From positions 1 through 60,471 of the IMG/VR virus record IMGVR_UViG_3300050821_001577: a stretch of DNA of 60,471 bases. One strand, 5' to 3'. Origin of the DNA: a virus. A program made the position numbers and the translations under genes. The notes beneath the pieces were generated by a model. The model was not told the origin of the DNA and made no database searches. It was given only the letters and a program-made list of their open reading frames with translations. Numbering within the stretch: position 1 is the stretch's first letter; every line of letters starts with the position of its first letter. This document shows positions 16,784-28,822 of this stretch, piece by piece.

Positions 16784-17067
16784 CAGAATGCCCTCACAAA
16801 ATACCATGCCAGATCAGCGGTAACCATCAGAAACCCTACGATGGTCCAGAAACCAAATACCTTCAGGTCAAACTGATCATGAGCGTTCTGAATGCTCCAA
16901 AACCTACCATCCCAATTCGGATCATGATCGAACCAGATATTTGTCGGCAACTCAGCGCTGCCATACATATTCCTGGTGACTTCTTCCCATCTCTGATCCG
17001 GCGTCCGATAAGGCTTGTCAGGCCTGACTTCGCCGGGGCGCGGGATGATGGTTTCGAGGTCCGTCAT
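16783..17067 (-). CDS. C-terminally anchored membrane protein
   Basis: A 94-residue protein with a soluble N-terminal part (about 1-65) and one C-terminal transmembrane helix (FGFWTIVGFLMVTADLAWYFV, 71-91). It starts just inside the end of terL (ATGA). Not recognised; such single-anchor proteins are scattered among the small genes of this genome. Confidence 0.7.
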   Translation of the reverse strand: MTDLETIIPRPGEVRPDKPYRTPDQRWEEVTRNMYGSAELPTNIWFDHDPNWDGRFWSIQNAHDQFDLKVFGFWTIVGFLMVTADLAWYFVRAF

Positions 17068-19781
17068 GCCGATCTCCTGCTGAAACCTGGATAGAGTGCC
17101 CGCTTAGGTGCCCCACGATGCCTCACCGCGTCCAACTCCTGTGCCCGGCGCTCCTCATCGCTGCGGATCAAACCGGTGTCGCGGAGATGCTTGATCGCCT
17201 GCGTCATCGAATCAAACAAATCATCATGAGTTCCGTAGGGGAAAAGCGCGCACTCATCAATGACCTTCCCAGCATAGTCGAATTCTTCTGGATCCGGCGC
17301 ATAAATCATCTCTTGAGAGAACGAAGGCACAATAGCCATGCCGCGGGCCATCTTATCTCCCTTGGGCTCAACAAGTTGGATCGTCCATCCTTGCCGTCCA
17401 TGGGCATTCCGCAGAGATTGAGCGGCAGATATGCCAGAAGCCTTTGACTCTATTAACAATTTGTCTGCTTTGAACCGATTGCAGCTATCCGCAACCCATT
17501 CGATCAGTCCCCAGAAAGGGCGCGCTCGGATCTTGTATGTCGATTCATGCTCGTTTGGCAGAATATCAATCTTGGGACCGGAAAACTCAAGCCGCTTTGA
17601 CCATGCATGGATCAGCATTGCCCGATTATAGCCATGCTCGTTCTGGAACACACCCCAGATCGTCAATGCAGATGGATCGTTCTTTTCTTCCTCAGTATAA
17701 GCGCCGTCTAGACTGGCCACGATATATTCAAACGGTGGGAACTTGCGACCAGTCATATAAATCTCGGCTGGCATCCACCACTCACGCTTAATCAGGCCAC
17801 CGCCACGAGCCTCTGGCGTCTGCTGGAGTTGGCTGGCAGTCGCATAGGGACCAAGTTCAATCTTGAGGCTTTGAACCGATCGTTCCGAGAAACGGTCAAT
17901 CCAAGCTAACTCACCCTCGCAATCATCTTGGTTCGCTCGCCACCGCGGATCAACCCAGCCAATCGAAGTTGTGTACGGCTCGCCATTGTCGTCTGCCTGC
18001 CACACATACTCCATTGGAATGCAGAGATGACAATATGGTAGCTGAAGCCGAAGGATCTCGCCGGAAACGTCTGCCTCACTGACACGCTGAGATATGACAA
18101 TCTTTGCATCGGTCTCCATGCTGTTCAGACGTGACGACAGAGATTCCCGAAACCAGCGGTTGGTTTCGTCCATGACCGCTTTGGATTCGCTCTCTTTCAC
18201 GTTATTTAAATCGTCGCAGTTGGAGCAAATTATGTTTGCACCATCTCCGCACAACATGTTATGGTTCCCCTCCACCGTGATGCAAAACGTTTCAGAGGGA
18301 ATTTCATGCAACAAATCGACAGAAACGACGCGAACGAAAGATGGCTTCCAGTAGTCGGGTTTGAAGGGATTTACGAGGTTTCCGACCTTGGCCGAGTTCG
18401 CAGCATGCCGCGCGTCGTGGTGCGGCGCAGACACTTGGCTATCCACAACGACAGAATCAGCCATGAGAAATGCGAACATGAGATGGTTAACTCTGGCAAG
18501 ATAATGACTGGCACGATTTGCGAAGGATATCCGCGCGTCTCGCTTCGCCGCGATGGCAAGACTTTCTATCGGATGTGCCACGTTTTGGTGGCCGCAGCAT
18601 TCTTGGGGCCGTGCCCCGAAGGCGAGGAGGTTCGCCATAAAGATGGTAATCGAGGCGATGCCAGTCTCAGCAATATCGAATATGGAACGCGGGCTCAGAA
18701 CATTGCCGATTGCAAAAGGCACGGAACATTTCGGAATGGCGCGTCGCATCTTACCGAGGACATGGTTCGCCAGATTGCGGCTCGCCATTACGAGACCGCT
18801 GCGGATCTTGGCAAAGAATTTGGGGTAAGCGGGGGCACCATCGCCGGCATCAGAAATCGGCGGATCTGGAAGCATTTGAACTTGGACTTGCTCCCGACCT
18901 ATCGCAGGAGCGGCGATCTCCACCCGGCTAGGCGCGGCAATAAGACGATGCCCGATTCGGATATCTGACGCAAACCTGTAGCCTTCATCGCCTAGAATGA
19001 GATGGTCCAAGGTGCAGGTCACGCTTGAACCATTCTCTAGTCCGACCCTAACCAAGTGGCGCCCCGGATTCGTATGCCAGCCAATGACCGGCTTGAGTTC
19101 TAATTTTCCGGTAGATCGATTGTATGACCAAACCGGCAAATCCATCCTGTTCTTGACAAACTTTCCGATGGCGATTGGCCCGATGGCGGTATCAATAAGT
19201 TGATCTGACGGAAAGCAGATGGCTCGGTTGCCGCGCTTACCAGTGACCGAGCCTGTAACCGAGCTCGCCAGCTTCCAGCCATGTTTCCGGTTGGAAACCA
19301 TCGTCATGCCGTTCTGGCGGATCGCGACATGGGGATACATGGCCTGATAATCGGTCGACGACACCAGATCGCCAAACCGCTGATTGTCGCGCTCGGTATT
19401 GCTGGAACTATACGAGAACGTCACGTACCGGAGATGGGCGAGGTCCATCGCCCCCCATTCCCATGCTGGCCAGAATACGTTGGTCAGCAGCGACTTCATC
19501 GCTCCAGGGAATACATTGATGAGGAGATTGGTTATTTCCCCGTAGGTGACCGCCTCAAGGTGCTCACAGATGGCCTCCAGAACCCACCCATCAACGAACG
19601 GCGTGCCAGGCTCCAGCACATGCCAGAAATACCGCACGAAGCTCAGCAAGCCACCCTGCCACACCCCGTCCTCATCTCGGTAGCCTCTGGTCTGATGCTC
19701 AGCCTTGGCTATCCTGCGGCGCTTCTCGGCTAATGCTGCGTTGAAGCGCTCAAGATCGGCACGGGGAATAGGCTTGTTCAT
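17064..19781 (-). CDS. terL: Terminase large subunit containing an intein
   Basis: A 905-residue precursor; after removal of a 333-residue intein the terminase is 572 residues, a normal size. N-extein: Walker A VFPGAMKSL (90-98, Lys97), the TGSVTGKRGNRAI stretch. The intein runs Cys189-Asn521 and Cys522 is the +1 residue, so splicing rebuilds the Walker B region RAI-CDDLNN (522-527). C-extein: nuclease motifs SLDGAY, LLIESKASG and the late DDLFDSMTQ. The enzyme translocates DNA through the portal and cuts it. The start ATG overlaps the small HTH gene (ATGA). The central part of the intein is antisense to an HNH gene at 18306. Confidence 0.93.
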   Translation of the reverse strand: MNKPIPRADLERFNAALAEKRRRIAKAEHQTRGYRDEDGVWQGGLLSFVRYFWHVLEPGTPFVDGWVLEAICEHLEAVTYGEITNLLINVFPGAMKSLLTNVFWPAWEWGAMDLAHLRYVTFSYSSSNTERDNQRFGDLVSSTDYQAMYPHVAIRQNGMTMVSNRKHGWKLASSVTGSVTGKRGNRAICFPSDQLIDTAIGPIAIGKFVKNRMDLPVWSYNRSTGKLELKPVIGWHTNPGRHLVRVGLENGSSVTCTLDHLILGDEGYRFASDIRIGHRLIAAPSRVEIAAPAIGREQVQVQMLPDPPISDAGDGAPAYPKFFAKIRSGLVMASRNLANHVLGKMRRAIPKCSVPFAIGNVLSPRSIFDIAETGIASITIFMANLLAFGARPQECCGHQNVAHPIESLAIAAKRDARISFANRASHYLARVNHLMFAFLMADSVVVDSQVSAPHHDARHAANSAKVGNLVNPFKPDYWKPSFVRVVSVDLLHEIPSETFCITVEGNHNMLCGDGANIICSNCDDLNNVKESESKAVMDETNRWFRESLSSRLNSMETDAKIVISQRVSEADVSGEILRLQLPYCHLCIPMEYVWQADDNGEPYTTSIGWVDPRWRANQDDCEGELAWIDRFSERSVQSLKIELGPYATASQLQQTPEARGGGLIKREWWMPAEIYMTGRKFPPFEYIVASLDGAYTEEEKNDPSALTIWGVFQNEHGYNRAMLIHAWSKRLEFSGPKIDILPNEHESTYKIRARPFWGLIEWVADSCNRFKADKLLIESKASGISAAQSLRNAHGRQGWTIQLVEPKGDKMARGMAIVPSFSQEMIYAPDPEEFDYAGKVIDECALFPYGTHDDLFDSMTQAIKHLRDTGLIRSDEERRAQELDAVRHRGAPKRALYPGFSRRSA
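18219..19217 (-). mobile_element. Intein coding segment within terL
   Basis: 999 bp coding residues 189-521 of the terL product. Block A: CFPSDQLIDTAIGPI beginning with the nucleophilic Cys189 (TGC at 19215-19217). Block B: GSSVTCTLDHLIL with the TxxH signature (Thr257, His260). Block F: VVSVDLLHEIPSETFCITVEG. Block G: ANIICSN ending in Asn521 (AAC at 18219-18221), then Cys522 of the extein. The residue before the terminal Asn is Ser instead of the usual His. No in-frame endonuclease motif (LAGLIDADG or HNH) is present; the middle ~200 residues are the reverse of the HNH gene on the other strand. Confidence 0.9.
18306..18968 (+). CDS. HNH endonuclease (NUMOD4) nested antisense inside the terL intein
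   Basis: A 220-residue protein read on the plus strand, wholly inside the intein. Start ATG at 18306, 6 nt after AGAGGG. Domains: NUMOD4 at about 12-33 (ERWLPVVGFEGIYEVSDLGR), HNH core (YRMCHVLVAAAFLG, then EEVRHKDGNRGDASLSNIEYGTRAQN, about 90-140), and a C-terminal helix-turn-helix (ETAADLGKEFGVSGGTIAGI). All expected domains are complete, so it is very probably functional, not a shadow. Codons lie exactly opposite terL codons, which forces the absence of TTA, CTA and TCA. It probably mobilises the intein or itself. Confidence 0.88.
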   Translation: MQQIDRNDANERWLPVVGFEGIYEVSDLGRVRSMPRVVVRRRHLAIHNDRISHEKCEHEMVNSGKIMTGTICEGYPRVSLRRDGKTFYRMCHVLVAAAFLGPCPEGEEVRHKDGNRGDASLSNIEYGTRAQNIADCKRHGTFRNGASHLTEDMVRQIAARHYETAADLGKEFGVSGGTIAGIRNRRIWKHLNLDLLPTYRRSGDLHPARRGNKTMPDSDI

Positions 19782-26723: not shown

Positions 26724-27149
26724 TCAATCACCATGCCCAGCCGCGATTTCGAAGAAACTCAGCTTCTTTTTCGGTCCATGTGGCTGCGGCCCGTCGTTCC
26801 AGCCCTCATCATTCAGCCATGTCGCTGGATTCTTTACGAATCCACCCATTACCTTGGGTGATCTACTATACTGTTCGAGACCGTCCATCAAATCTATCCA
26901 CCTTATGCGGCCAGCCTTGGCGATCTTTTCCAAAACCTTCATCGCTCGCGGTTTAGCTGTTTTGTTCGGATATTTGTGCCAGAATTGTGCCAGATAATCC
27001 GGGGGCCAGTCTGCAGGAATAAGGCTCGGCAGAAGATCGCTTGGAGTTACCGCATCAATTGCATCCTGCAGGATCTCTATCACTGCCGTCTCGGTGATCA
27101 GGTCCAAGCCTAAGTCGGTGATTCGCGCCAGCGTTTGGGAGGTCAGCAT
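26724..27149 (-). CDS. Replication initiator-like protein (DnaT/O C-terminal domain type)
   Basis: A 141-residue protein with the signature of phage replication proteins: FWHKYPNKTAKPRAMKVLEKIAKAG (about 56-80), WIDLMDGLEQYSRSPKVMGGFVKNPATWLNDEGWNDGP (about 84-121). In larger O- or DnaB-loader-like proteins this is the C-terminal domain; here it is almost the whole protein, so N-terminal truncation or a split architecture is likely. Role: recruiting the host replisome. The 219-bp gap downstream holds no convincing gene. Confidence 0.7.
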   Translation of the reverse strand: MLTSQTLARITDLGLDLITETAVIEILQDAIDAVTPSDLLPSLIPADWPPDYLAQFWHKYPNKTAKPRAMKVLEKIAKAGRIRWIDLMDGLEQYSRSPKVMGGFVKNPATWLNDEGWNDGPQPHGPKKKLSFFEIAAGHGD

Positions 27150-27407: not shown

Positions 27408-27656
27408 TCAGATTTTGTCTTTCAACGATGCTGGATCTATCACGCGAACTCCACTTGCTGCGCCGTGCGATATCTTCCGAGCCTCGTGCGCGTCTCGTTT
27501 CTCGTTGATCTTACTCAGTCGCCGAACTTCCGCTTTCTGATTCGCCGTTTTCTTCAGAATAGCTTTGATGCCATTCTTTTCTTTCCATTCCAGCAGTGCT
27601 TGTTTAGCCGCTTGCCGGATCTGGTAAGCCGTTCCGTTTTCCTTCAATCTTCCCAT
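27408..27656 (-). CDS. Small basic protein (82 aa)
   Basis: Lys/Arg-rich helical protein (YQIRQAAKQALLEWKEKNGIKAILKKTANQ...EARKISHGAASGVRVIDPASLKDKI). It lies just downstream of the terminator at 27681-27711, so it may have its own start or be transcribed by readthrough. Function unknown; nucleic-acid binding is plausible. Confidence 0.7.
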   Translation of the reverse strand: MGRLKENGTAYQIRQAAKQALLEWKEKNGIKAILKKTANQKAEVRRLSKINEKRDAHEARKISHGAASGVRVIDPASLKDKI

Positions 27657-27680
27657 TGCTAAGCCTCTTACTTGCCTATC

Positions 27681-27711
27681 AAAAATCGGTCATTTGCCTC
27701 TTGGCAAATGA
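27681..27711 (-). terminator. Intrinsic terminator at the end of the gene-free region
   Basis: On the minus strand a 9-bp perfect stem (TCATTTGCC 27703-27711 with GGCAAATGA 27690-27698, 4-nt loop) is followed 4 nt later by TTTTT (27681-27685). It closes the 504-bp stretch without a confident gene. Confidence 0.75.
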
Positions 27712-28105
27712 TCCCGAGCAGAGGAACACCACCTACAGACAGAATTCCGGCGTCGGAACCTGATCGGGGAGTATCGTTTCGGGGTCGCTCTGTCGAAACA
27801 CTCCGTGCTCCATGCGGCGGCGGATCGAACGCCCCAGATCAGGCTAAGGCGCCGTTCGTGCTGGTCAGCGTACTGCCAGTGTCCAATAGTTAAGTGATTT
27901 GGCTAGGTTATCCCGCAACAACCCTGACTAGGCTCGCAGGACCTACCCCGACAGACGGGATGGCCTATGGAACCGATGCTGCTTTGCGGGGTTTAGACGG
28001 GGGTTGACGAAAGGCGAGATATTGCCTAAATCAATCCACATCCGACCGCCGCCAAGCATATCGGATATTCTTAAGTCCGGCTCCAGGGAAACCCCCTCGG
28101 AGCCG
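27681..28105 (-). ncRNA. Candidate structured non-coding RNA (~425 nt)
   Basis: The stretch 27657-28160 (504 bp) holds no confident gene, unusual in this packed genome. On the minus strand it has TTGACT-N18-TACAAA (28136-28141 and 28112-28117) at the start and the terminator at 27681-27711 at the end. Within lie strong pairings: CCTGATC+GGGG (27759-27769) with CCCC+GATCAGG (27832-27843), enclosing a GTTTCG/CGAAAC plus GGAGT/ACTCC hairpin, and a CGGCTCC/GGAGCCG hairpin near 28080-28104. Two weak short reading frames also exist (e.g. 28065 downward, MLGGGRMWIDLGN), so a decayed gene is the alternative. Confidence 0.45.
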
Positions 28106-28111
28106 TCGACT

Positions 28112-28141
28112 TTTGTACGCCTGACTCTTGAACGGAGTCAA
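28112..28141 (-). promoter_or_regulatory. Possible promoter of the candidate ncRNA
   Basis: Minus-strand TTGACT (28136-28141), 18-nt spacer, TACAAA (28112-28117), located about 20 nt after the stop of the adenine methyltransferase. Good -35, fair -10. It lacks the CGTAAACCA box of promoters A-C. Confidence 0.4.
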
Positions 28142-28160
28142 TGGCTACCGGTAGACAAGT

Positions 28161-28748
28161 TCATTCCGCCTCCCACGAAATGCGGTGTATGCGCGAAGCA
28201 CCCGTATGTGATTTGTCCCAAACGAACCAAGCGAAAGCCATGCCGCTATTCGAATGGTTGCCAGTCCAGCCCCTTCGATGCATCTGGGGCAAGCGCTTTC
28301 GGAAAACATAAACGTCGGCGAGCCATCCGGTATCCAAGATTGGTGATCGGCGCTCACTTTCGAGAAATGCAAGGCGCAGCAATAATGCTACTCTGGGGCA
28401 GAGATCGAGTGCCTTGGTGGCAAACTCCGTGGCATTCTTGAACGGCGGATTCGTCAGGATCATTTGCACCCCGATCGGTAGTTGAGTTTCCATTAGGAAA
28501 TCCCATCCCGATTGGTCCTGATCTGGTGAACTATAATCCACTAAATCGGTTGCATAGACCTGCCGCCCCGACGCCCTGAGAAGCCTCACAATGGCTCCTG
28601 GTCCGCAAGCTGGCTCCCAGATTACCTCGGGTAGGTTTTCCACGCCCATGAGCGCCCTAAGAGCTTCTGGAGGCGTTTCATAGCAATCGTCTGCACGCTC
28701 ATTCACCGGATGAGCAGCATTCCCCATTCCTGAAACTAAACCAGCCAT
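28161..28748 (-). CDS. DNA N6-adenine methyltransferase
   Basis: A 195-residue protein; start at MAGLVSGMGNAAHPVNERAD with GGGGA 6 nt upstream. Motifs: DDCYETPPEALRAL (20-33), SAM-binding EPACGPGAIV (45-54), YATDLVDY and catalytic NPPF (100-103). This order is that of Dam-like phage adenine methyltransferases. The C-terminus ends in the normal ...SWEAE form, so the gene is complete. Probably protects phage DNA or marks it for regulation. Confidence 0.9.
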   Translation of the reverse strand: MAGLVSGMGNAAHPVNERADDCYETPPEALRALMGVENLPEVIWEPACGPGAIVRLLRASGRQVYATDLVDYSSPDQDQSGWDFLMETQLPIGVQMILTNPPFKNATEFATKALDLCPRVALLLRLAFLESERRSPILDTGWLADVYVFRKRLPQMHRRGWTGNHSNSGMAFAWFVWDKSHTGASRIHRISWEAE

Positions 28749-28822
28749 CAGATTCCCCACCGCCAAACCGTTATCTCAAGCCGCGGGTGCGCGCTGAGAT
28801 TTTGCCAAGCATTTTGTTCAAT

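Follow-up and report, generated by a model that had tools for sequence, protein, structure and literature searches.

A predicted antisense-RNA control region in front of phage replication genes

What does a phage encode in a 504-bp stretch that holds no gene and stands in front of its replication genes? The gap (27657-28160) fills exactly the space between two minus-strand open reading frames of the window, the 60,471-nucleotide viral DNA analysed here as a whole (Table 1). Its neighbours on the minus strand lead into replication genes, the first gene after the leader in the window encoding a small protein without family rather than an initiator. A preliminary description had regarded the gap as gene-free and as the source of one large structured RNA of about 425 nt, transcribed from a minus-strand promoter, with a decayed gene as the alternative. 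The absence of genes is confirmed. No open reading frame of at least 40 aa was found on the operon strand of the gap, and no tRNA or tmRNA within it, while blastn against phage and plasmid records gave no match. Nor did any Rfam family match the gap, whether at gathering thresholds or with the limit relaxed to E <= 5, in agreement with the earlier remark that it could not be recognised as a GOLLD or ROOL RNA. Folding of the gap beats dinucleotide shuffles on the minus strand (z = -4.2) and on the plus strand (z = -4.5).

One relative, L011, carries the entire gap at 71% identity and in the equivalent position. Substitutions between the two sequences are even over codon positions (53/165, 49/167 and 47/166) and the lengths of 8 of 10 indels are not divisible by three, on which grounds a decayed gene was rejected. 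Conservation of the short frame MLGGGRMWIDLGN between the window and L011 was not found. A functional structured RNA is instead supported by structure-based conservation in relatives. On sequence evidence, then, the gap exists as described, does not code for protein and has more structure than chance would give.

With the methyltransferase as query, 80 viral loci were fetched. A pattern from the conserved core, and then the covariance models R1 and R2, gave ten members with the 5′ part of the gap, which spans about 150 bp: the window, L004, L010, L011, L013, L014, L023, L085, L086 and L088. All are viral contigs, nearly all metagenomic, and they are related to one another. The covariance search identifies nine of them clearly, at 75-140 bits with R2; the match of L023 is weaker (E = 0.03), yet its hairpins and place match those of the other members. 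Searching through the neighbouring replication proteins returned only members already known. Five matches in genome contigs were judged to be chance, and a covariance search of 385 alphaproteobacterial and 398 Pseudomonadota genomes gave a single match (E = 7e-5), rejected as a lone host terminator. At the end of contig L041 (4640-4733, opposite strand) there is a GC hairpin with a T-rich tail, like the terminator part of the element; this contig was left out of the member count, the element being incomplete there. The nearest cultured relatives of the methyltransferase belong to Rhizobium and Sinorhizobium phages, which suggests Alphaproteobacteria as the host group; R2 found no match in three of these phage records.

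Replication genes lie downstream of the element wherever they are recognisable. The downstream proteins include a TOPRIM/zinc-ribbon primase-type protein in L004, a helicase in L088, DnaB in L014, a DnaT-like protein in L023, and replication initiation-like proteins in the window, L085 and L086. The L085 counterpart of the PHROG 270 protein is 77% identical to that of the window, and a 294-aa protein downstream in L085 is 93% identical to its window counterpart. Elsewhere in the window, the 905-aa terminase large subunit (17064-19781, minus strand) matches known terminases in two pieces. The insertion of about 330 aa between them has a weak match to the Pfam intein splicing domain, whose curated cut-off it does not reach (E = 4e-5), and is likely an intein.

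Table 1. Positions, in the window, of the genes and predicted RNA features at and around the gap
Feature	Position	Strand	Remarks
DNA methyltransferase (PHROG 799)	28161-28766	-	E = 1.5e-53; upstream gene of the leader
Predicted intrinsic terminator of the antisense RNA	28078-28117	+	CGGCUCC...GGAGCCG then UCGACUUUUGU
Predicted antisense (counter-transcribed) RNA, ~75 nt	28039-28117	+	5′ end inferred from the promoter
Predicted 5′ hairpin of the antisense RNA	28040-28066	+	AUCCGA / UCGGAU; loop differs between phages
Predicted antisense RNA promoter	28004-28032	+	-35 TTGACG 28004-28009, 17-bp spacer, -10 TAAATC 28027-28032
Predicted leader rod	27973-28064	-	CCGAU 28064-28060 pairs with AUCGG 27977-27973; inner helix 28043-28036 with 28003-27995
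Putative switch strand AUCGGUUCC (3′ strand of the rod)	27969-27977	-	Counterpart can pair with the ribosome site in short-leader L004, L088, L013
3′ structured leader module, ~310 nt	27657-27968	-	Common to the window and L011 only
Hairpin UCAUUUGCC-AAGA-GGCAAAUGA then U-run	27690-27711	-	Immediately precedes the next gene
82-aa basic protein, without family	27408-27656	-	First gene after the leader
Replication initiation-like protein (PHROG 270)	26724-27149	-	E = 1.5e-11; further down the operon

The signals that the members share lie largely on the strand opposite the operon. All ten have the promoter layout TTGAC(G/C)-17-(T/C)A...(C/T) on this strand, with -10 variants that include TAAATC, TATGTC and TATTTC, and a hairpin begins about six bases further on. 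The general form of this 5′ hairpin is a CCGA/UCGG-type stem with a variable loop, in which the second pair may be U-A, A-U or C-G and the outer pair G-C or A-U. It is joined in most members by a U-rich linker (UUAGUUU-like) to a second, GC hairpin with a T-rich tail, which is present in 10/10. Across the two hairpins there are 13 two-sided compensatory changes, against 5.1 in shuffles, and none of 500 shuffles reaches 13. When the ten 5′ parts were aligned by sequence alone, alifold gave z -5.65 for the antisense strand, and the consensus fold of the operon strand was not significant (z -1.13). The letters of the element that are conserved best are explained by the promoter elements of the opposite strand; the most conserved block, TAGGCAAT-12-GTCAAC, considered as an RNA hairpin, was dropped once it proved to be that strand's -10 and -35.

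A scan for this promoter and terminator together has a single match in the 60-kb window, at 28004(+), where Markov-resampled windows give 0.05 per window. Each member locus has one match, always at the element, and 1.0 Mb of non-member loci has 2; because the motif was drawn up after the members, themselves related, had been seen, these figures measure specificity rather than provide an independent test. The two non-member matches, at L069 1675 (-) and L066 2204 (-), lie in further viral contigs that carry a methyltransferase. A self-terminating antisense RNA of about 75 nt is thus predicted opposite the operon strand, ending about 45 bp before the end of the methyltransferase gene. The minus-strand promoter proposed earlier was not confirmed: a promoter scan of the gap returned none, and the region has fewer promoter-like sites than chance predicts (1 found, 2.4 expected). 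The plus strand carries the best-supported promoter and terminator. A single minus-strand RNA of 425 nt is not supported.

What faces this predicted RNA, on the operon strand, is a leader that can fold into a rod. Pairing of the rod flanks beats shuffles across members (Fisher combined p = 2.6e-11), and the rod is detectable only by such a direct test of its two flanks. Its inner helices diverge yet stay complementary (GGACGGG/CCCGUCU, GUCAGG/CCUGAC, GGACA/UGUCC, CGGGGGA/UCCCCCG). The 5′ strand of the rod is the antisense target, the predicted antisense RNA matching the leader's 5′ half with full complementarity. The rod requires sequence upstream of the antisense start, and therefore only the operon transcript can form it.

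The 3′ strand of the rod is the candidate switch strand. In the three short-leader phages the next gene comes directly after the rod, and there the counterpart of this strand can pair with the Shine-Dalgarno sequence (p = 0.004 in L004, 0.024 in L088 and 0.17 in L013). No significant downstream partner was found for it in the seven long-leader members, including the window. In equilibrium folding with the antisense target masked, access to the ribosome site drops clearly in only one of the three short-leader phages (L088); in L004 it stays paired whether or not the target is masked. The 3′ half of the rod in L085 is letter for letter the same as in the window. L085 5376-5439 and window 27968-28032, which reach from the -10 region as far as the switch strand, share about 65 identical bp between flanks that differ strongly on both sides, which points to recent recombination at the element.

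The remaining 300 bp of the gap form a separate module, 75.5% identical between the window and L011. In this pair, 9 base pairs show two-sided changes, and alifold gives z -3.1 on the operon strand and z -4.4 on the opposite strand. Several of the helices use G-U pairs that are kept in both sequences, and for this reason the operon strand is favoured for the module. Other sequence of 250-400 nt replaces it in L010, L014, L023, L085 and L086, and it is absent from L004, L013 and L088; pattern scans returned only L011 as a real match, their other matches resembling unrelated coding sequence. The gap is therefore modular, its 5′ part being common to ten members and its 3′ part to L011 only, with the 3′ part of L085 unrelated to that of the window despite the shared 3′ half of the rod. 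The 3′ modules of L010 (4590-4905), L014 (5915-6314) and L086 (2690-3062) are unlike that of the window and share short blocks with each other. The block TGGGGGTTTGGGGGT is common to L010 and L086, L010 and L014 both have a CGCCCTC..TTGAGG hairpin with CGACATT after it, and the end motif TAAGAGGCTTAGCAAT is common to the window and L010.

Two structures named in the preliminary description fall within this module, and each survives in part. The 9-bp hairpin with T5, put forward as the terminator of the large RNA, exists at 27711-27690(-), and L011 keeps its stem by two compensatory pairs. Terminators of this kind are as frequent as chance predicts (3 found, 3.0 expected), and the hairpin is not a conserved terminator, because the U-run of the window is missing in L011. 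The helix of 27759-27769 with 27832-27843 can form (11 bp, one bulge), and L011 keeps its 7-bp core with one compensatory change from U-A to C-G. It competes, however, with a better supported local hairpin, CGAACGGCGCCUUAG..CUGGGGCGUUCG, which has three two-sided compensatory changes; at most the loop part of the longer helix could pair, as a pseudoknot.

In our best reading of these observations, to which we give a probability of roughly two in three, the replication genes of the phage are preceded by a region that controls them through an antisense RNA. What comparison of the sequences finds conserved is the predicted promoter, hairpins, terminator and rod, and the position before replication genes. 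What we infer is the synthesis of the two RNAs, pairing between them and, through that pairing, lower expression of the replication genes. In the leader of the operon mRNA, the CCGAU strand would pair with the downstream AUCGG(UUCC) strand to give the long rod, and a promoter within the rod region of the opposite strand would drive the short two-hairpin RNA, terminating before the methyltransferase gene. With few phage genomes present the antisense RNA would be scarce, the rod would form and the replication genes would be expressed. With many genomes it would be abundant, pair with the 5′ half of the leader and free AUCGGUUCC, so that the leader would take a closed form; in the short-leader relatives this form would cover the ribosome site. 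Genome copy number would in this way feed back negatively on replication.

Other explanations can be set against this one. An antisense RNA of the lambda OOP type might act through RNase III cleavage of a polycistronic mRNA, or through transcription near a replication origin, and need no switch in the leader. The size and place of the 77-nt OOP (PMC3349717) match those predicted here, and in the window the switch strand has no significant partner that would support covering of the ribosome site. We nevertheless consider this unlikely: the complementarity of the leader rod is itself conserved, and a target for simple cleavage would have no need of that, and the window RNA ends within the gap without overlapping the upstream coding region, whereas OOP overlaps cII. 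Much less probable is a leader that switches by itself, riboswitch-like or bound by a protein, with the opposite-strand promoter an accident. The choice between the rod and alternative pairings in the leader would suit such a switch, but the opposite-strand promoter, hairpins and terminator are kept in 10/10 members while the rod sequences diverge, and apart from the promoter letters no conserved loop was seen that could serve as a ligand pocket; of all the readings we find this one the hardest to credit.

Very little likelihood is left for the single trans-acting structured RNA of the preliminary description, a ROOL/GOLLD-like molecule of about 425-500 nt on the minus strand. The folding of that strand speaks for it, and both halves of the gap keep structure between the window and L011. 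Against it stand the lack of a minus-strand promoter in the gap, the lack of an Rfam match, and the replacement or loss of everything beyond the first ~150 bp common to all members, the best-conserved blocks of which are promoter elements of the other strand; what ten phages share is, on the opposite strand, a predicted promoter and an RNA of two hairpins with its terminator, and the rod facing them. We hold it similarly improbable that the hairpins, or at least those of the 300-bp 3′ module, function at the DNA level as a replication origin or primosome-loading site. The position just before the replication genes would fit, as would 3′ modules structured on both strands and variable between phages, but G-U pairs kept in the helices of both the window and L011 fit RNA better.

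If the antisense control region is what it appears to be, a conserved plasmid-like antisense switch would mean that these phages measure their own copy number. We speculate further, and this is doubtful, that the phage family sets its own copy number or excludes superinfecting relatives by means of the antisense RNA, with its variable loop as an incompatibility tag, while swapping like a cassette the structured module that separates the switch from the replication genes. The gap also carries a caution, in that an apparent large structured RNA can turn out to be a pair of transcripts that face each other.

In plasmids, control of replication initiators by antisense RNA is a classical theme. ColE1 RNAI and IncFII CopA are short multi-hairpin antisense RNAs with a variable loop, acting against a folded replicon leader or primer; the predicted phage RNA resembles them in its hairpins and variable loop, and the replicons are different. 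With GOLLD and ROOL the element shares a gene-free structured stretch in a phage genome, and differs in not being one conserved large RNA and in its lack of an Rfam match. The closer plasmid parallel is repABC, in which a ctRNA of 55-59 nt is encoded on the opposite strand of the repB-repC gap, before the initiator gene (PMC3155836, PMC10194956). In the published model its leader has two states, a large stem-loop when the antisense RNA is absent and a closed form when it is present (PMC3155836). The repB-repC gap of pTiC58, whose sequence we inspected, has an opposite-strand TTGAC element, then a GC hairpin and T-run. A short opposite-strand RNA before replication genes, a TTGAC-type promoter element, a terminator hairpin and a leader that forms a rod without the antisense RNA are all predicted in the phages. 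The phage RNA differs in having two hairpins and about 75 nt, and a structured module of 250-400 nt follows in 7/10 members. The phage element is flanked by the methyltransferase and other phage genes, without repA, repB or repC; no RepC Pfam match was found among the downstream proteins searched, and blastn of the window's gap against the plasmids in PLSDB gave no match.

A phage parallel is already known in OOP of the lambdoid phages, a self-terminating antisense RNA encoded between the early gene cII and the replication gene O (PMC3349717). By place and size it is the nearest phage case: phage-encoded, self-terminating and antisense, of 77 nt against a predicted ~75 nt, between an early gene and replication genes. 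OOP overlaps the 3′ end of cII and targets it, whereas the RNA predicted here stays inside the gap, opposite the leader; the passages on OOP that were consulted describe no leader rod. Since neither family's full definition applies here (there are no repABC genes, the RNA is longer and the upstream gene is not overlapped), we say "works like" rather than "is": on present analogies, the best reading is an element that works like a repABC ctRNA and is placed like lambda OOP.
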